64,000 nt of DNA from Alphaproteobacteria bacterium (GTDB lineage: Bacteria > Pseudomonadota > Alphaproteobacteria > JANQMY01): NCBI GenBank assembly GCA_028289425.1, contig JANQPL010000010.1, forward strand, positions 1 to 64,000, written 5' to 3'. Both the position numbers and the translations under genes were made by a program. Numbering within the stretch: the first letter of the stretch is position 1; the number at the start of each line of letters is the position of its first letter. This document shows positions 3,696 to 43,162 of this stretch, piece after piece. The notes below the pieces were generated by a model that was not told where the DNA came from, did not search any database, and saw only the letters and a program-made list of their open reading frames with translations.

Positions 3696-3769
3696 GTGTC
3701 ATCTCCGGCCGAAACGGCCCTCCCGCAACGCAGCCCCAACATGGAACACCGAAATGAGGCCGTGGTCAT

Positions 3770-3873
3770 AGAGCGCGATCAGGTTAAGTGGAATCCGGTT
3801 AACCGTCCGATCGCGCGACCAACGGTGAATCATAGGCATGATCATTTTTCATGGAAATATGATCATGCCTTAG
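3770..3873. repeat. Composite palindromic intergenic repeat, family A, copy 1
   Basis: Two modules are joined. Module 1 begins AGAGCGCGATCAGGTTAAG and ends TTAACCGTCCGATCGCGCGA, forming an imperfect palindrome. Module 2 is GGCATGATCAT (3835-3845) facing ATGATCATGCC (3859-3869), a perfect 11-bp stem. The second copy at 10211-10326 has the same modules in the same order. The type resembles the AGAGCATGATC palindromes frequent in Rhizobiales-like genomes. Confidence 0.85.
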
Positions 3874-3922
3874 TATAGGCGGAAATAAAGATCCGTGAAC
3901 CGATCAGATGACCGTGCCGCGA

Positions 3923-8494: not shown

Positions 8495-9652
8495 CTAATG
8501 ATCGGTGATTTTATCCGGTGCATAGTTCCAGTACCGCAAAATCAAATCCGCCCGGTCGACCGACAGTGAGTCATAGATCATAACAAGCCGCTCTTCCTGG
8601 GCACGTTGGTCGGCATCAACACCCCAGGCCTTTTGAAACAAACTCAAAACGGTCAGGAAGCGGCCGCGGCCGAAGCGCAGCGCCTTGCACAAAATGGCCA
8701 AAGGCTCGCCCGACGGATCGGCGACGATCTTTCGGACCAATCCATGAGACAGGCCGGCGCCGTCGGCAACGGTTTCGAAAAACGCCTCTGCATGTCCATG
8801 CTGAATGGCATCGAGCGCTTCGTCGGCATCGAATTCGCTTTTGCGCTGCGGTCCTACAATGATCTCAAGCGCCGCAATGGTCTCGGGATTCAGGCTATCA
8901 ATGGCGTCTTTCATATCAGGTACCGATCCAAACTCTAGGCTACGACGATCGACAGAGTATTTTTTTGCTATGGCCACCCGTTCTTTCGGCTCCGCATGCC
9001 AAAAAAGCCGCAGCGCGACGGATGGCCCTAACTCCTGCCGCTTCATCAGAACGGAAACAAGGTCCTGCTCTGACTCGGTGCGATCCACAAGGCGCGACAG
9101 AACCTTGTCCGGGATCGTGATGCTCTCATTGCCCAACAGTTCCTTCAGCACTGCCGGCGTTATGTGGGCCTCGGCGAACGCTGCCACGATAGGGGCGGAC
9201 AAGGATCGGCGCCGGGCAACCGCAATGTGCTGCGCCTCCGACCCATGGCGCATAATCTCCGCCAAATCCAAATCACAAAGCGCAGGCGATTGCGCCAGCA
9301 AGTCCAGCGCCAAATCGCTGTCGCCCTTCGCCAAGTCGCAAACGGTTCGCTTCGGCACATCCGTTCCGGTTTGAAACCGCTCGCACAGCATCGCCCGATG
9401 TCCATAATCGAGTTTGGGCAACAATGCCGCCAATACATCGTCGATGAGCTGCCTCTCGCTTTGCGAAATTTGCGAGGACGGCATCAGAGCGCGATCCGCC
9501 AACCGCCGAACGATGTCATCAATCGGGAATAAAGCGTGGTGTCCGGTGAGGGACACCACGCTGCCCTCCGATGGTTCGGGAGGGAATGCCCTAGGGTCCG
9601 GCGTCTCGACGGCATTGGCTGCAGCATCCACTGCCACAGGCTTTCCTGCCAT
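8495..9652 (-). CDS. DUF2336 domain-containing protein
   Basis: Cytoplasmic, helical-repeat protein of a family (PF10098) essentially limited to Alphaproteobacteria and without an assigned biochemical role. The 385-residue length fits. Family-like features include a disordered N-terminus, then HEAT-like helical pairs such as DLDLAEIMRHGSEAQHIAVARRRSL and KVLSRLVDRTESEQDLVSVLMKR. A C-terminal all-helical part contains AILCKALRFGRGRFLTVLSLF. No catalytic motif is visible. It is transcribed toward the parA-like genes but separated from them by 400 bases, so it is not part of that operon. Confidence 0.8.
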   Translation of the reverse strand: MAGKPVAVDAAANAVETPDPRAFPPEPSEGSVVSLTGHHALFPIDDIVRRLADRALMPSSQISQSERQLIDDVLAALLPKLDYGHRAMLCERFQTGTDVPKRTVCDLAKGDSDLALDLLAQSPALCDLDLAEIMRHGSEAQHIAVARRRSLSAPIVAAFAEAHITPAVLKELLGNESITIPDKVLSRLVDRTESEQDLVSVLMKRQELGPSVALRLFWHAEPKERVAIAKKYSVDRRSLEFGSVPDMKDAIDSLNPETIAALEIIVGPQRKSEFDADEALDAIQHGHAEAFFETVADGAGLSHGLVRKIVADPSGEPLAILCKALRFGRGRFLTVLSLFQKAWGVDADQRAQEERLVMIYDSLSVDRADLILRYWNYAPDKITDH

Positions 9653-9858
9653 CGTACTTCTGCTCCCAGCCCAGTTCCGGCGCGCATTTTTTGCGCCGGT
9701 AATGCCTCACAGTCGTAAGTGTTCCAGAAACCCTTTAACGATCGGATAGAGCGACCGGCTTGTTTTGACTTAAAGATGTTTCAAAATGCGCTGAATAGGG
9801 CTAAATGCTCCGGCACAAGGGTGGTGCAATCTCTGCCATCGATAGGGGAAAGATCCGC

Positions 9859-10122: not shown

Positions 10123-10210
10123 AATCGGGCTCTTCCAGGAATTATCGCCAAGACTGTGACGACCGTACGTTTTTGACGTTCTTGATTGGGACACTATGTT
10201 TAGAGTCGTT

Positions 10211-10326
10211 AGAGCGCGATCAGGTTAAGTGGAGTGAGGCTTGCCGAACGGTTAACCGTCCGATCGCGCGACCAACAAAGAATCCAGGGCATGATCATGA
10301 TTTCAATGGAAATGATCATGCCCTAG
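10211..10326. repeat. Composite palindromic intergenic repeat, family A, copy 2
   Basis: Shares AGAGCGCGATCAGGTTAAG at the left and TTAACCGTCCGATCGCGCGA in the middle with the copy at 3770. Module 2 here is a perfect 13-bp inverted repeat, AGGGCATGATCAT (10286-10298) facing ATGATCATGCCCT (10312-10324). Both copies lie between a gene's end and the next start. Confidence 0.85.
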
Positions 10327-10347
10327 TGATCGTCGTGTGAGGGAGAC

Positions 10348-13285: not shown

Positions 13286-14647
13286 ATGGAAAAACCCGCC
13301 AACCAGATCGATACCGTTGCGACTCTATCCGATTCCACGGATTTTCGGTGGTATCTCACGACCCACGGCACCTGGTTTGTGGGCATGGGTCTCCAAATGG
13401 TGATTTTCCCCTATTTGGTGACCGAAGTGCTGCTGGGCTCCCCCAAAATGATCGGCATTGCCCAAATGGCACTGCTGGCACCCACTTGGGTTCTCATGCT
13501 GTTTGCGGGCGCCATTGCCGACCGGCAAGACGGGCGGCGCATGCTAATCGTTATGAATGCAGCCGCCATCCTGCCACCTTTGGTACTTTCCCTTGTGGTG
13601 GGGGGCGGCACGCTCACCTATTGGCTGATCATCGCTTATGCCTTGTCCATGGGCGTCCTGAGCGCCTTCTCCATGCCGACGCGGGACTCTCTGCTGAACG
13701 ATGTGGTGGCGCAGATCCGCGAGACGAACGCGGACGAAGCGTCGAAAGTTCAGCGCGCCGTCGCCTTGTCGAACATGACCCAATTCGGCGGACAGACCGC
13801 CGGTATGATCATCGCGGGTGCCGCCGCCATATTGGGCACGGCGCCATTGATCTTCTTTCACGCCATTGTCGCTGCTATTGGCATGATCGCTTCTCAGCGC
13901 CTCCATCCGGCGGTCCATGCAAGGGCCAAAGACGATATTGCCGTTCATCCGCTCAAAGCGATCCGGGAAGGGTTGTCCGAAGTGTACCGCTCGCCCATCC
14001 TTTTGCCGCTGGTGTTGACGGCTCTGTCTGTCGGATTGTTTTTCGCAGGCTCCTTCATGGTGACGCTGCCGGTCCTCATTCGAGAGGATTATGGCGGCGG
14101 CATTTCCAAATTCTCGCTGGCGACCGTCAGTTTCTGGGTGGGCACGATCATCTCCTCCCTCACATTGATCCGTATGGGACACATCGCCCATCGGGGCCGG
14201 GCGCTGCTTTTGGCTTTGGCCAGCGGCGTGGTCCTGCTCGCCTCCATGTCGATCCCCCTGCCCTTTGCCCTATTGTGCCTGACGTTTTTGGGATGGGGCC
14301 TTGGCGCGGGCGTTGCCCTCACCCTGTCCCGCGGCATCGTCCAAGAGGTGGCGCCCGCAAGCCACCGCGCACGGATTTTGGCGATCTATCAGCTCGGGTT
14401 CAGCGGTGGGATGCCGCTTGGGTCTTTGATGATGGGTTTTCTGATAGAGGCTTACGGTGCACGGACGGCCGTTTTGATCCCCGCCGCCGCCATGACCGTT
14501 GCCCTCACGGTGATGACGTTGCGCTCACATCTGTGGTCGCTGGATCAAATGACCGCGCGGCTGGCGAGAGAAGCGGCCATTGGCGATGCAGAACCGTCAG
14601 CTCAAAAGCGAGACCCGGTTCCCGAAGTCCCCACGTCGACGCTGTGA
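13286..14647 (+). CDS. MFS transporter, MFS_3-like exporter
   Basis: About 453 residues with 11-12 hydrophobic segments. It is an inner-membrane secondary transporter. The loop DRQDGRRMLIVMNA after helix 2 matches the MFS signature between helices 2 and 3. The overall style (TTHGTWFVGMGLQMVIFPYLV at the start, VLIREDYGGG mid-protein, SRGIVQEVAPASHRARI late) resembles the MFS_3 exporter group that includes EntS. I prefer ATG 13286 (MEKPANQ) to the TTG at 13205 because it leaves a normal N-terminus, but no strong ribosome-binding site supports either. It is divergent from the antiporter. The substrate is unknown. Confidence 0.82.
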   Translation: MEKPANQIDTVATLSDSTDFRWYLTTHGTWFVGMGLQMVIFPYLVTEVLLGSPKMIGIAQMALLAPTWVLMLFAGAIADRQDGRRMLIVMNAAAILPPLVLSLVVGGGTLTYWLIIAYALSMGVLSAFSMPTRDSLLNDVVAQIRETNADEASKVQRAVALSNMTQFGGQTAGMIIAGAAAILGTAPLIFFHAIVAAIGMIASQRLHPAVHARAKDDIAVHPLKAIREGLSEVYRSPILLPLVLTALSVGLFFAGSFMVTLPVLIREDYGGGISKFSLATVSFWVGTIISSLTLIRMGHIAHRGRALLLALASGVVLLASMSIPLPFALLCLTFLGWGLGAGVALTLSRGIVQEVAPASHRARILAIYQLGFSGGMPLGSLMMGFLIEAYGARTAVLIPAAAMTVALTVMTLRSHLWSLDQMTARLAREAAIGDAEPSAQKRDPVPEVPTSTL

Positions 14648-14671
14648 AGCAGCGCACCGGTATACCGATCC

Positions 14672-15229
14672 TTAGGCGACCGCTTTTTCGTCAAGCTCGC
14701 GTTTCACAAAGCCTTCGACGATATCGTCAAGCTCATCCCACTTTGTGAACTCATAATCCTGGTGCGTGTCCGTGGGGCCGCCGGCGGCGCGCATGATTTG
14801 CTGCAAGATGAAGCGCTTGAAGAAATTATACTCCGTGTACCGCAGCGCGCCGGGGATCTGATGCACTTCAATAGACGCCCAATGAACGGATTTCGCAAAG
14901 TCCTGGCAGAGCTTACGAAGATCCGCCTTGTCGCCCTCGTCATCGCTCATGGCACCAAGGCTGACGGATAAAAACATGCCGGGCAGTTCCTTCAGGCGGT
15001 CCGAATGGGCTTTTAGGTAACGTTTGACCGCGGCTGGGAAATGATGCTCGTGAATGGGCGCACCGATGATCACGGCATCCGGATTTGGCCATTCGGCGTC
15101 ATCATGTTTCTCGGACAGATCGTACAACACGGCTTGATGCCCCATGGCCTCCACCTTCTGGGCAACCCGCCGGGAAATCTTGCGCGTCTGTCCTTCGATC
15201 GATCCATAACCAACCAGTACGGTGCTCAT
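14672..15229 (-). CDS. HemG-like flavodoxin-domain protein (protoporphyrinogen oxidase type)
   Basis: FMN-binding flavodoxin-like protein of about 185 residues. HemG enzymes oxidise protoporphyrinogen IX to protoporphyrin IX at the membrane with quinone as acceptor. The FMN phosphate loop YGSIEGQTRKI lies at the N-terminus. PDAVIIGAPIHEHHFPAAVKRYL and FLSVSLGA follow the flavodoxin_5 pattern, and there is a helical insertion near the end (YNFFKRFILQQIMRAAGG), as in HemG. I start at ATG 15229 with GGAGG upstream rather than 15265. Without other haem genes nearby the exact role is inferred; a general flavodoxin-type reductase is possible. Confidence 0.8.
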   Translation of the reverse strand: MSTVLVGYGSIEGQTRKISRRVAQKVEAMGHQAVLYDLSEKHDDAEWPNPDAVIIGAPIHEHHFPAAVKRYLKAHSDRLKELPGMFLSVSLGAMSDDEGDKADLRKLCQDFAKSVHWASIEVHQIPGALRYTEYNFFKRFILQQIMRAAGGPTDTHQDYEFTKWDELDDIVEGFVKRELDEKAVA

Positions 15230-15374
15230 CTCGCATCCTCCAGCGTTTCGGTGTGGAGGTAACAAACACCAGGCCGGCGGAAAGCACCTTGATCGACGTC
15301 AATTGCGGACGAACTTTACCCGGCAAAGGAATGGGGCCACCTGCCTTCCATGGACCGTAAATACCTCTTGCTGT

Positions 15375-15380
15375 TATAAT
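15375..15380 (+). promoter_or_regulatory. Consensus -10 box TATAAT of the toxin-antitoxin operon
   Basis: A perfect TATAAT ends seven bases before the antitoxin ATG at 15387, so transcription would begin at or next to the start codon. No Shine-Dalgarno sequence fits in between. The -35 region is weak (TGGACC near 15351). Confidence 0.5.
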
Positions 15381-15386
15381 GAGCAC

Positions 15387-15599
15387 ATGAACAAGACTGA
15401 GACGATCATCGTTGACGTATATCCCTGGGCGGAGCCGACCGAGGAACAGAAGAAATTCTTCGACGCTCTTCCGCCGGAAGAGAAACGCCGCATGATCGAA
15501 CAGTCGATAAAGGAAGGTGTAGACAGCGGGCCGCCTGAACAAACTGATGCCGAGAGCATCGTTGACGAGGCTAAAAAACGTCGAGAGCATGGCGTTTAA
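15387..15599 (+). CDS. ParD-like antitoxin of a type II toxin-antitoxin pair
   Basis: 70 residues, starting MNKTETIIVDVYPW. The chain is strongly acidic and helical (EPTEEQKKFFDALPPEEKRRMIEQSIKEG), with a disordered-looking C-terminal tail that would wrap the toxin. It is the first gene of a two-gene unit and its stop overlaps the toxin start by 11 bases, the usual arrangement for ParD/ParE. The N-terminal beta strand followed by helices suggests a ribbon-helix-helix-type DNA binder, but the motif is weak. The ORF-track start at 15222 reads through the promoter and is rejected. It is identified mainly by position. Confidence 0.7.
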   Translation: MNKTETIIVDVYPWAEPTEEQKKFFDALPPEEKRRMIEQSIKEGVDSGPPEQTDAESIVDEAKKRREHGV

Positions 15600-15855
15600 G
15601 CTTCGCCCGCTGGTCAAACAGCAGCTATTTGAGATCTTCGACTACACCGCTGACACTTTTGGCGAAGCCCAAGCTGAAAAATATTTGAAGGAACTCAGCG
15701 GTGTTTTCGAGATGATCAGTTCAAACCCTCACATTGGCCACGCCTATCACGCCACTACGCGCCAGTTCATTCATGGCCGCCACATCATTGTTTATGAAGT
15801 TGTCAACAGCGACGTGATTATTACGAGATTGTTTCATGCCGCACAAAGAAGATAG
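15589..15855 (+). CDS. ParE-like toxin (RelE/ParE superfamily)
   Basis: 88 residues starting MAFKLRPLVKQQLFEIFDYTADTFGEAQAEKYL, a textbook ParE N-terminus: two helices around the conserved IxxYTxxxFGxxxAxxY pattern. SSNPHIGHAYHATTRQFIHGRHIIVYEV forms the beta sheet, and the last strand ends IITRLFHAAQR, where the conserved arginine of ParE lies. ParE toxins poison DNA gyrase. Translation is probably coupled to the antitoxin through the 11-base overlap. The toxin stop lies two bases before a duplicated VOC-gene tail, so the pair sits at a recombination boundary. Confidence 0.9.
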   Translation: MAFKLRPLVKQQLFEIFDYTADTFGEAQAEKYLKELSGVFEMISSNPHIGHAYHATTRQFIHGRHIIVYEVVNSDVIITRLFHAAQRR

Positions 15856-15857
15856 CG

Positions 15858-16127
15858 TCAAACAACCGGTCCCGTTAGCGAGGCGCGTTGCGAGAGTTCG
15901 ATCCAATTGCCGTCCGGGTCGCGGACAAAGGAGAAGCGCGCCACCGCGCCCAGTGTGATGGGCGGGCGGCCTTCGGCACCACCGCGTTTCAGCACATCCC
16001 CGTGAACTTGATCCGCGTTCCAAACCTGCAAAGTGAGATAGCGGAAGCCAGGCCCTTCCATCGAGGCGTCTGCGGGTGCAATGCCATCTTGTTCCAAAAA
16101 ACAGCACACCTCCCCCACGGAAACTAA
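15858..16127 (-). pseudogene. Detached 3' end of a VOC-family gene
   Basis: Only the last 90 or so codons remain. From APADASMEGPGFRY to ASLTGPV, 72 residues are identical to the C-terminus of the complete gene at 17875-18564, then the match fades at about FLEQD and stops near 16127. The frame stays open to 16190 by chance, through unrelated sequence without a start signal. It is an inactive remnant that marks the left end of an inserted or rearranged segment. Confidence 0.85.
15868..16125. repeat. Direct repeat, left copy (VOC gene tail)
   Basis: Aligns without gaps to 17885-18107 at a constant offset of 2017. I count seven mismatches over the first 207 bases, all silent in the VOC frame, then rapidly more. 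Weaker similarity runs to about 16125. The match starts abruptly three codons before the VOC stop. Confidence 0.9.
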
Positions 16128-16248
16128 AGAGTGTTTTCCGATTCGACACCATTCGAAAGTTGTGTTTCCCTGGTAGATGTCACTTTTCAACTAGCTGTCC
16201 AACGCGGACATTGGCGACGATTTTGTTGAGCCTATTTCGGAGGAATTC

Positions 16249-16878
16249 ATGCCGAATGTGAAATGGGAGTTACGGGCCACCAGCGATAGTCTCTCTGAGA
16301 TTCAGAAACTCTTAGACGATCAGCATGGAGAGTATGTTAAGCAACTCCACGATCAGGCCGACGTGGACTGGAAAGATCCTTCATTGTCCAAACGGTTGGC
16401 ATGCAAAGGAAACCAACATACTTGTAAACCTACCATAAACGTTCCCGCATTGAACAAATCATACGAACTCACGCTTACCGGAACCGGGGACTCCGAAATT
16501 GTCGGCCATCATCTGGGACCTCGCGCACTTTCTTGGAACGAAACTGAGCTCAAGGGACACGAACCAGACTTAGGCGACATAACCGTGACGCTACTCGCTA
16601 GCGAAACACACGCAGGAACGTTGGTACCATTGCAGCGGAACAAGTCGCTACCAGCAATCAATCGGAATACATACTTCTTCGTAATTGATATTGAGAAAGT
16701 AGGAAAACTCGTAAGCGGTACTCCAGCAATTGTTGAATCGATTATCAACGAGATTCCTCCCCGAAGCCGTTACTATTTCAAGAATCCACCAATCAACTTC
16801 TATCTGGAAACAGACCAGCAGAGGTCGACGCCTCTGGCGATACTGACTAGTGCGTATACAGATGTAGAACCGAAATAG
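16249..16878 (+). CDS. Orphan protein of the AT-rich islet (ORF A)
   Basis: 209 residues, not recognised. GGAGGAATTC directly precedes the ATG, an excellent ribosome-binding site, so it is likely expressed. No signal peptide or membrane helix. The sequence looks like a compact alpha/beta or beta-rich globular protein: helices near the start (SLSEIQKLLDDQHGEYVKQLHD), then strands (KSYELTLTGTGDSEIVG, DITVTLLASETHAG, TYFFVIDIEKVGKLV). Two cysteines lie in ACKGNQHTCK. Base use is unlike the neighbours: in line 16681-16740 I count 23 G+C of 60, against 43 of 60 in line 18961-19020. This points to acquisition from elsewhere. Function unknown. Confidence 0.7.
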   Translation: MPNVKWELRATSDSLSEIQKLLDDQHGEYVKQLHDQADVDWKDPSLSKRLACKGNQHTCKPTINVPALNKSYELTLTGTGDSEIVGHHLGPRALSWNETELKGHEPDLGDITVTLLASETHAGTLVPLQRNKSLPAINRNTYFFVIDIEKVGKLVSGTPAIVESIINEIPPRSRYYFKNPPINFYLETDQQRSTPLAILTSAYTDVEPK

Positions 16879-17048
16879 ACGAACACCTTGGACCAAAGGC
16901 CTTCCGCGCTGCTATTTTTTGTCATTCAACCACGGGATTACCCCATCATCGGCGCGCTTTATGAATGCAGCAGCGAACTGAGCGGCCAATGGTTGTTCAC
17001 TTCTTTAAGCGACCCCAATAGAACAGTCTAAGACACCAAAAAGGCAAG

Positions 17049-17873
17049 ATGGAAAACTTCGGTTCAACTAAAATGGAGTGCTTCGCCATTCAGTCAGTTT
17101 TGGCGACTTTGCTTGTGGGGCTGTCTGTAACTTGGACGGGACAAATATCTGCTTATGCTGCCGACCCACCCCAACGGCAACAATCCTATGATCATCTGAT
17201 ACCGGAAGACTCGATGTTTGGAAACCCTGGACTAGCAGACACTTGGTGGGGCGGCGAATACGCCGACTTAGTAACGCGGGTACTTAATGATGCGTATTCT
17301 CCTGAAGTATTGGCACGAGTGATTGTCATACCATCATTCGAAAATGAACACGCAATTGGAATACGCCGAAAAAACGGCAGGTATTATCTCTTCTACATAC
17401 GACCAAACATAGACATTTGGCTACCTGTCATGATGCTTCACAGGGCTGACGAAGCCGAGAACATTGATGAGGACGCAGCGGAAACCGCTGACACAAACGA
17501 AGAAGATAAGGAGTGCACATACAAATATTTGTCTATATTGGAAACCGCCAAAGTTGAGACATCTGAGATTCCGGTTGAAGAAGACTTGGCGACAAATTTA
17601 GTCCACGTCTTTTCAGAGATGTTGTTTGAGACAAAATTTCCGCGAGTGGACCGAGTTGGCATTGACGGTACCACCTATCATTTTTCGGTCGGTCGTGACT
17701 TAGCCGGAAAAACATGGAGTCCTGACGAAAACACAAAGGTGGGGCAGCTCGTCGAAATCACACGATTAATGCGATTGGCCGTAGCCGACAAGGAAGGAAG
17801 TCATTTGGCGAGTTTGAAAACAGCCGCGCTCGCTCTAATGCAAGAATTGCCTTCTCCCAATGGCCCTGGGTGA
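17049..17873 (+). CDS. Orphan exported protein of the AT-rich islet (ORF B)
   Basis: 274 residues, not recognised. The first 38 residues contain a hydrophobic signal (IQSVLATLLVGLSVTW...SAYAAD) with an AYA-type cleavage site, so the product is probably periplasmic. The mature part has a tryptophan-rich stretch (LADTWWGGEYADL), a beta segment (HAIGIRRKNGRYYLFYI), a very acidic loop (about residues 137-157) and a helical C-terminus. AAGGCAAG precedes the ATG; a second in-frame ATG nine codons on (MECFAIQ) is possible. It shares the low G+C of ORF A, 170 bases upstream. Its stop codon is one base from the convergent stop of the VOC gene. Confidence 0.7.
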   Translation: MENFGSTKMECFAIQSVLATLLVGLSVTWTGQISAYAADPPQRQQSYDHLIPEDSMFGNPGLADTWWGGEYADLVTRVLNDAYSPEVLARVIVIPSFENEHAIGIRRKNGRYYLFYIRPNIDIWLPVMMLHRADEAENIDEDAAETADTNEEDKECTYKYLSILETAKVETSEIPVEEDLATNLVHVFSEMLFETKFPRVDRVGIDGTTYHFSVGRDLAGKTWSPDENTKVGQLVEITRLMRLAVADKEGSHLASLKTAALALMQELPSPNGPG

Positions 17874-17874
17874 T

Positions 17875-18564
17875 CTAAGCGACGGGTCCCGTTAGCGAGG
17901 CGCGTTGCGAGAGTTCGATCCAATTGCCGTCCGGGTCGCGGACAAAGGAGAAGCGCGCCACAGCGCCCAGTGTGATGGGCGGGCGGCCTTCGGCACCGCC
18001 GCGTTTCAGCACATCCCCGTGAACTTGATCCGCATTCCAAACCTGCAGAGTGAGATAGCGGAAGCCCGGTCCTTCCATCGAGGCGTCTGCAGGTGCGCGA
18101 TCGTCTTGTTCGAGAAACAACACACTGTCACCGATGCGAAAGGCATTCGCGCCCGACTGTGGGGCCGGCGGCAGACCGATGACCTCTCCCCAAAAATTAC
18201 GGTGGGCTGCCAAATCCCGTACGCGCGTGACCACACCCATTTGAGTGATGCCGCGATAGCCTGGCGGGACACACTGAATGCTGACCCCTTCCGGATCCGT
18301 TGCCGCCACAGGCGCTTCCACGTCGGACACGGCGATCAGGACCTCTGAGTACCCGGTCGCAGGATTGCTGGGTAAGTCATTGCGGGAATGGTTGACCTTG
18401 ATGATGGACCCACGCAATTGGTGGCGGTGCTGCTGCACACCGCCACCCACCGACAAGGGCCCCTCATATTCCACGCCCGGCTGCGCTTGCCAAAAGGACA
18501 GCATCTCATCTCGCCGGTTGGTCAGCAGCCCGATGTCCAACTGATGTTTGGCAAGCTCAAGCAT
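17875..18564 (-). CDS. VOC (glyoxalase/dioxygenase superfamily) protein
   Basis: 230 residues with two beta-alpha-beta-beta-beta units typical of vicinal-oxygen-chelate proteins: HQLDIGLLTNRRDEMLSFW at the start and ITQMGVVTRVRDLAAHRNFWGEVIGLP in the middle. The end FSFVRDPDGNWIELSQRA carries the conserved DPDGNxxEL motif with its metal-ligand glutamate. Such enzymes isomerise, epimerise or cleave small substrates using a divalent metal. It is encoded 15 bases behind the enoyl-CoA hydratase on the same strand, so the two form an operon and it may act on a CoA ester or related metabolite. Its last third is duplicated at 15858-16127. Confidence 0.88.
   Translation of the reverse strand: MLELAKHQLDIGLLTNRRDEMLSFWQAQPGVEYEGPLSVGGGVQQHRHQLRGSIIKVNHSRNDLPSNPATGYSEVLIAVSDVEAPVAATDPEGVSIQCVPPGYRGITQMGVVTRVRDLAAHRNFWGEVIGLPPAPQSGANAFRIGDSVLFLEQDDRAPADASMEGPGFRYLTLQVWNADQVHGDVLKRGGAEGRPPITLGAVARFSFVRDPDGNWIELSQRASLTGPVA
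17885..18143. repeat. Direct repeat, right copy (VOC gene tail)
   Basis: This is the copy that is still joined to the gene's 5' part. It matches 15868-16125. With its partner it brackets the AT-rich islet, as an attachment-site duplication would. Confidence 0.9.
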
Positions 18565-18579
18565 GGTTTTTTTGTCCGT

Positions 18580-19446
18580 CTACGAATATTTCGGGTCATC
18601 CCACCAAGGGAAATAGCCGGGCATGTCCTTTGACGGATTCATGTTGAATTCAGCCGGCCGTTTCTCCAGGAAGGATTGCACACCTTCTTTGGAATCCGGC
18701 GACTTGCCCATGTAGTAGACACCCCGGCTGTCCAGCTTGTGGGCCTCCATGGGATGGTCCGCGCCCAAACAACGCCACAACATATGCCGGGTGAGCGCCA
18801 CGGACACGGCAGAAGTGTTTTCGGCAATTTCCGCAGCGATGGCTCGGGCGGCCGGAAGGAGATCGTCCGGCTTATGGAGCGAACGCACCAGCCCCGCCTG
18901 ATGCGCCTCCTGTGCCGGGAACACGCGCCCCGAATAGGTCCACTCGAGTGCTTGCTGAATGCCCACCGCACGCGGCAGGAACCAGCTTGAACACGCTTCC
19001 GGCACAATGCCGCGGCGGGCGAAGACGAACCCAAAGCGCGCCTCTTCCGATGCCAAACGAATGTCCATGGCCAATTGCATGGTGGCGCCCACGCCCACAG
19101 CCGGTCCATTGACGGCCGCGATCACCGGTTTCAAGCATTCGTAGATGCGCAAGGTGAGCAGCCCACCCCCGTCGCGGATCGCCTCGTCGCTCCATTCGAA
19201 TTCGCCGCCCCGGTCGAAGGTCCCGCCACGGCTGGGGCTGAGATCCGCGCCGGCACAAAACCCTCGCCCGGCGCCGGTCACAATGATGGCGCGCACATTA
19301 TCGTCCGCATCGGCTTTGTCGAAAGCGTCGATCAAATCTTCCATCATCTGCCGGTTAAAGGCGTTGAGCTTGTCGGGCCGGTTAAGGGTGATGGTGAGGA
19401 TGCGGTCCTCTACGTCGTATTTGATGGTTTCGTAAGCAGTTGTCAT
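18580..19446 (-). CDS. Enoyl-CoA hydratase/isomerase (crotonase) family protein
   Basis: 288 residues, cytoplasmic. Crotonase fold: IKYDVEDRILTITLNRPDKLNAF at the N-terminus, the first oxyanion-hole motif GRGFCAGADL, the second AVNGPAVGVGATM, and FARRGIVPEACSSWFLPRAVG with one acidic residue in the position of a catalytic glutamate. The second usual glutamate is not obvious, so isomerase or hydrolase chemistry is also possible. The C-terminal half (SFLEKRPAEFNMNPSKDMP) is a pattern I associate with crotonases of fatty-acid or terpenoid degradation. It is first in an operon with the VOC gene and divergent from the acyl-CoA synthetase across 181 bases. Confidence 0.93.
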   Translation of the reverse strand: MTTAYETIKYDVEDRILTITLNRPDKLNAFNRQMMEDLIDAFDKADADDNVRAIIVTGAGRGFCAGADLSPSRGGTFDRGGEFEWSDEAIRDGGGLLTLRIYECLKPVIAAVNGPAVGVGATMQLAMDIRLASEEARFGFVFARRGIVPEACSSWFLPRAVGIQQALEWTYSGRVFPAQEAHQAGLVRSLHKPDDLLPAARAIAAEIAENTSAVSVALTRHMLWRCLGADHPMEAHKLDSRGVYYMGKSPDSKEGVQSFLEKRPAEFNMNPSKDMPGYFPWWDDPKYS

Positions 19447-19627
19447 AGGATCGCCTCCGATATTTTTGGATAAGGAATAGCTTTGTTGGCGCGCAGTCTA
19501 TTCGGGATTTCTTCAAGGGCATAGACCGCAATAGCCGCGCCCGTTCGGAACATTGTCAGTGGGGGGCAATCCTGATAGATCCTGGGCCACAAGAAATCAG
19601 AAAGATCGATAGCTTAGAGGCGCGCCC

Positions 19628-42927: not shown

Positions 42928-42958
42928 AATCGGTGACGCCGCTTTATTAGGAAGACCC

Positions 42959-43031
42959 GGCCGCCCACTCCCCCTTACCAACCGCCCGCCAGGGTACCGT
43001 TGGGGTGGTTGGGAAGGGGGAGTGGGCCGGC
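42959..43031. repeat. GC-rich inverted repeat, family C, copy 2
   Basis: GCCCACTCCCCCTTACCAAC (42963-42982) faces GGTTGGGAAGGGGGAGTGGG (43007-43026) around CAGGGTACC. The loop word CAGGGTACC is shared with copy 1. It lies in the divergent promoter gap between the TraB-like gene and the MDR gene. Confidence 0.85.
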
Positions 43032-43162
43032 AAGGCACACAAATCGGGGCCATCCCGATTTGTAATGACCATAGAAAAAGAGGCTTAACGCGCGATAAAG
43101 GCGGCCATGGAGCCGGCGAAGTTCAAGGAATTACGTCAATACATCACCAACAGGAGACAGAC

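Follow-up and report, generated by a model that had tools for sequence, protein, structure and literature searches.

The VOC locus

The window, by which we mean the whole 64-kb stretch of DNA analysed here, contains a complete gene of the VOC/glyoxalase superfamily and a detached copy of its 3′ end, and between them lie two AT-rich ORFs on the opposite strand (Table 1). This duplication of the VOC tail around the two ORFs, with a constant offset of 2017, had been reported in the initial annotation and is borne out: positions 15860–16109 match 17877–18125 at 93% over 245 bp, which correspond to the last ~80 codons of the gene. Weak homology extends further, to about 16127, with a score reached by none of 5000 shuffles. 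It is the sole local direct repeat of such size in the window, and the genome holds no further match of that kind to the VOC tail beyond the two copies. The next-largest repeat in the window (120 bp, direct, 77.5%) joins 3769–3874 and 10210–10327, 6.4 kb apart.

Table 1. Features of the VOC locus, in window coordinates.
Feature	Position	Strand	Remarks
Flavodoxin gene (Flavodoxin_5), native downstream neighbour of VOC	14672–15229	-	PF12724, E=3e-29
Palindrome TTGAT-N4-ATCAA, flavodoxin promoter	15289–15302		Kept in sister species G001; marks native flank
Antitoxin-like small gene	15387–15599	+	70 aa; overlaps ParE; assigned by position only
ParE-family toxin gene	15589–15855	+	88 aa; PF05016, E=1e-15
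Detached VOC tail, own stop codon TGA	15858–16127	-	Codons 5–74 near-identical to complete gene
Probable switch point, near-identical block to decayed edge	16080–16085		Equivalent to 18097–18102 in complete gene
ORF1	16249–16878	+	209 aa, orphan; GC 0.475; GGAGG ribosome-binding site
ORF2	17049–17873	+	274 aa; GC 0.474
Duplicated tail inside complete VOC gene	17875–18125	-	Direct repeat of 15860–16109, 93%
Complete VOC/glyoxalase-superfamily gene	17875–18564	-	229 aa; Pfam PF00903 Glyoxalase, E=1e-8

The GC content of the islet is 0.476, whereas the genome mean is 0.568 (sd 0.027); this puts the islet among the lowest 0.22% of 3170 genome windows, and by dinucleotide bias it belongs to the most extreme 1.7%. 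ORF1 has no match in Pfam, NCBIfam, PHROG or PADLOC and no relatives in 385 genomes of the class, viral contigs and plasmids. ORF2, which probably carries a signal peptide, has weak homologues only (~25%), on contig C11 of genome G005 and in a Hymenobacter plasmid protein, and relatives of neither ORF were found in a VOC context among the class genomes, viral contigs and plasmids. The AlphaFold models of ORF1 and ORF2 (pLDDT 31 and 39) are too poor for use. ORF2 and VOC are convergent, with stop codons 1 bp apart, and on the far side of the islet the stop of ParE lies 2 bp from that of the detached tail. The antitoxin-like gene next to ParE has no family match in the same four databases, and no Rfam match was found in 14500–19500. 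Profile searches detected no integrase among the islet ORFs, and the five PF00589 tyrosine recombinases of the whole genome are on contigs C3, C7 and C18 only, with none on the VOC contig, so that the earlier remark that no integrase is visible stands.

Divergence between the two VOC tails

The differences between the two tails are distributed very unevenly. Counting from the stop, codons 5–74 contain seven synonymous and no amino-acid differences, while in codons 1–4 five of 12 nucleotides differ, with both copies still reading P-V-A/V-stop. From codon 75 upstream the tails diverge abruptly, with many amino-acid changes, although homology is still present, and the detached tail has acquired a one-base insertion and thus a frameshift near codon 81. 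The near-identical block differs at 7 of 210 positions and the decayed edge at 8 of 21 (Fisher p=5e-6), and both edges are far more divergent than the core (p=1e-4 and 5e-6). When polarised against the sister species G001, derived changes are found in both copies.

To judge from this pattern, the tails look like two functional alleles of different lineages. A neutral leftover produced in place is disfavoured, because amino-acid changes should then predominate and the core differences are synonymous only; the unequal recombination product offered as one option in the initial annotation is disfavoured, as is in-place duplication, by the same synonymous-only divergence. The switch from near-identical block to decayed edge may mark the crossover, and the tail of the complete VOC gene is probably a host/donor hybrid. 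Alternatively, gene conversion between older copies could account for both the similarity drop at codon 75 and the divergence of the final four codons.

An empty site in the sister species

Our comparison genome is one congener, G001 (listed in GTDB as Alphaproteobacteria bacterium PL25b_bin.64). It is a draft that is 10% contaminated, and its VOC orthologue is 77% identical. On its contig C296 the VOC gene ends at 658, and after a spacer of about 80 bp come the genes for flavodoxin, an MFS protein and an antiporter, a gene order that the window shares. The spacer keeps the palindrome found upstream of the window flavodoxin gene, which from its sequence may be an FNR-like site. Since the G001 spacer retains this palindrome, followed by flavodoxin, everything here from the VOC stop to the palindrome is extra: about 2.57 kb comprising ORF2, ORF1, the detached tail and the ParDE-like pair.

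The initial annotation had named an empty site with one VOC tail in a relative as the check for insertion, and this is what the G001 locus has, with flavodoxin next. Together with the composition and the allelic, mosaic tails, the empty site supports the claim that the islet entered at the VOC 3′ end. The inserted region is, however, larger than had been described, as the ParDE-like pair (15387–15855) is also missing in G001, where ParE has no orthologue; its best matches in other genomes are at ~35%. Two modules stand in series, each 1–2 bp from a VOC stop codon, and since the ParDE-like pair is absent from G001 as well, both were accreted at the VOC gene end. There is no third remnant of the VOC tail between ParD and the flavodoxin gene.

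An ancestral tandem duplication of VOC, with most of the second copy lost, ORF1 and ORF2 inserted and gene conversion keeping the tails alike, would leave something like the conversion tract that a near-identical block with weaker homology on both sides resembles. This is nevertheless the least probable of the explanations that we weighed: no tandem VOC exists in G001 or at 80 other VOC loci, the rest of the second gene leaves no trace in the islet, and the eight other loci described below stay unexplained.

Further detached tails in the genome

In a search of 2.82 Mb, or 52% of the genome, for truncated copies of genes close to the parent, with home-made gene calls, we found nine detached tails, all on the same strand as and downstream of their own intact gene. 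They belong to VOC (245 bp, 93%), an acyl-CoA dehydrogenase (93 bp, 87%), a HerA-like helicase (46 bp, 85%), an SdhB-like gene (58 bp, 88%), a glycosyltransferase-like gene (69 bp, 91%), a Rieske/glutamate-synthase-like gene (52 bp, 100%), a comM-like gene (50 bp, 88%), an amidohydrolase of the dihydroorotase type (79 bp, 76%, decayed) and a membrane protein on contig C4 (155 bp, 95%, extending 82 bp beyond the stop); gene names at these loci that have no Pfam match are our own reading of the sequence. Lengths thus range from 46 to 245 bp and are mostly below 100 bp, and in eight of the nine the tail ends no more than 10 bp from the stop codon. The mirror-image arrangements outside genes amount to one tail upstream, at most two heads upstream and no head downstream, and no detached tail lies far from its own gene in the scanned genome, where only dispersed repeats do. 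At 80 other VOC loci no convincing tail duplication was found 3′ of the homologue, and 0.94 Mb of other, mostly alphaproteobacterial loci gave no clean case, only chance-level matches or dispersed repeats, a base-rate sample too small to call the enrichment species-specific.

The bracketed modules are 0.7–4 kb long and mutually unrelated. They include a PIN-domain toxin with its partner, an AAA/AbiEii-like ATPase, a TetR–acyl-CoA dehydrogenase–CMD–GST operon, a luciferase-like monooxygenase with a regulator, ArsR with AHSA1, a molybdopterin oxidoreductase, a pentapeptide-like protein and a protein that, without a Pfam match, looks by sequence like a REP-associated transposase. The operon (C12:406367–411672) has normal GC and lies between the acyl-CoA dehydrogenase gene and the detached tail, which the GST stop codon directly abuts. 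At eight loci the joint between module and detached tail shows no evident homology; at VOC weak homology runs past the joint.

In G001, sites are empty at three loci, VOC, acyl-CoA dehydrogenase and the glutamate-synthase-like gene, the latter two, judged by position only, having their native next gene after 43 bp and about 150 bp, respectively. In principle, these could be precise losses via recombination between the tails; gain is the simpler reading, since three loci are empty and the modules are foreign-looking or accessory. A comM gene in G001 (contig C239, 5346–6869) has its own detached tail, a 167-residue C-terminal copy (residues 343–509 at 9318–9815, 2.4 kb downstream, 66% identity to the query), and since this duplication is a different one, the sister species used the end of comM independently. 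That the VOC arrangement comes back at eight further genes suggests that the genome has gained genes at gene ends more than once, with no integrase visible.

What kind of process could produce such a series? Insertion with long target duplication is a process reportedly described by Nobusato, Uchiyama, Ohashi and Kobayashi in 2000. It would explain why direct repeats, tens to hundreds of bp long, flank the inserts, with a single copy at the empty site, and the absence of mobility genes fits it, as does, particularly well, the C4 membrane-protein locus with its 82 bp duplicated beyond the stop. The toxin-antitoxin and ATPase modules also resemble the restriction-modification inserts reported from Helicobacter pylori (PMC1643837, PMC3031569). 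The tail differences do not agree with it: in the inner codons of eight tail pairs, pooled without the decayed amidohydrolase pair, 33 are synonymous and 7 non-synonymous, against a neutral expectation of about 56% non-synonymous (p=7e-7, a somewhat optimistic value as the decayed pair was dropped after the counts were known), which is not the neutral drift of a copy. Eight of the nine repeats, moreover, terminate with the stop codon and do not extend into the flank. We therefore disfavour this explanation as distinctly improbable.

The main rival is a defective or trans-mobilised element of the e14/icd type, with the VOC 3′ end serving as attB for a site-specific recombinase and the replacement tail carried by the element as attP. 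The replacement-tail geometry fits, the tails are of comparable length (163–165 bp in e14/icd, PMC6379469, PMC11148124; ~250 bp here), and allelic tails with an element-side edge decayed beyond codon 75 are expected of a long-lived attachment arm. The allelic, mosaic tails fit the replacement end recognised in the initial annotation; the lack of an integrase inside or near the islet speaks against a classical integrative element. The integrase is missing from both islet and contig, with only five in the genome; among 20 module and host proteins scanned with profiles no integrase-family match was found, and no common att motif was seen by eye at the nine junctions. Nine target genes without an evident junction motif would need nine specificities, all of them lost. 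We regard this origin as rather unlikely, if less so than a long target duplication. Homology-driven integration explains the data at least as well, because there is no integrase, eight other unrelated genes are involved and no junction motif is evident.

Proposed mechanism

We propose, at what we consider an even chance of being right, that the islet is foreign DNA which entered the VOC 3′ end by recombination with a related lineage's tail next to ORF2 and ORF1. The incoming fragment would have carried the relative's VOC tail adjacent to the two ORFs and recombined with the resident VOC tail, so that the VOC gene is now completed by the tail that came in, while the resident tail would have been pushed 2 kb downstream, still bordering older DNA that includes the earlier ParDE module. 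The crossover would lie near codon 74–75, and the decayed part would be the margin of the DNA that came in. The agent would have been general, RecA-type recombination acting on a transferred fragment, rather than a trans-supplied integrase, in one of two forms: a single crossover with a circle, or homology-facilitated illegitimate recombination. Selection for insertions that leave the gene functional may be why gene tails are hit and not gene middles.

Ends pinned to the stop codon are to be expected if the genes that meet are homologues from two lineages that differ in the DNA downstream of the gene. Homology-anchored displacement, whose odds we put at about even, agrees with tails that are allelic, with remnants that lie downstream and with the stacking of events. 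The short remnants, mostly below 100 bp, are not predicted by random illegitimate joints and count against it, and no donor genome with VOC followed by ORF2 and ORF1 was found among the class genomes, viral contigs and plasmids. There is also a slim chance that the lineage has a dedicated, integrase-independent route adding small cassettes to conserved genes at their 3′ ends, with a cassette-borne allele of the last 50–250 bp swapped in and the resident tail pushed downstream, in which case gene ends would be general sites of accretion.

Relation to known systems

Displacement of a resident 3′ end by homology-anchored DNA, leaving a downstream orphan, with events that stack, would link the VOC locus to the T6SS immunity arrays of Vibrio cholerae and to Rhs loci. 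Rhs orphan tails are a further case of displaced remnants. In those systems the targets are polymorphic toxin loci, whereas here they are unrelated housekeeping genes whose product is conserved. For the V. cholerae arrays, homology-facilitated illegitimate recombination with displaced remnants has been proposed (PMC5361080).

Among the elements that integrate at gene 3′ ends, the e14 prophage in icd of Escherichia coli is a case of site-specific integration with a replacement tail (PMC6379469, PMC11148124). As here, foreign DNA lies between two copies of a conserved gene's 3′ end; as is proposed here, the gene stays complete because its last codons come from the insert, and a remnant of the resident tail is left behind. 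However, e14 is a 15-kb, site-specific prophage, whereas here modules of 0.7–4 kb without an integrase are found at nine genes. Long target duplication concerns small modules that lack a recognisable mobility gene and sit between long direct repeats (PMC1643837, PMC3031569), and these are the very features that it shares with the present loci. The repeats there are copies of the target, in contrast to the stop-codon-pinned tails here, which resemble alleles of two lineages.

Displaced gene tails bear on the question of how small modules such as toxin-antitoxin pairs and orphan genes move without mobility genes of their own. They are a lasting trace that records the target, the direction and the rough age of an event, and with nine of them in half a genome, stop-pinned and with a synonymous-only pattern, the question becomes testable by population comparison within the genus.

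Other repeats

REP elements and their transposases were considered as a general cause of the tail duplications and rejected: they are present at two loci, the C19 glutamate-synthase-like gene and C4, and there is no REP-like repeat match within the VOC islet. On C19 (127099–129646) a REP-associated (Y1)-transposase-like protein lies between the glutamate-synthase-like gene and its 52-bp tail copy, with REP-like GGACGGGGTTACAAACCCCGTCC palindromes, and the content of this locus is absent in G001. Elsewhere in the window, at 42944–43043, a near-perfect hairpin repeat of ~90 bp has a folding energy of -64 kcal/mol for 100 nt and is dispersed over about 39 places in the 2.82 Mb of genome.
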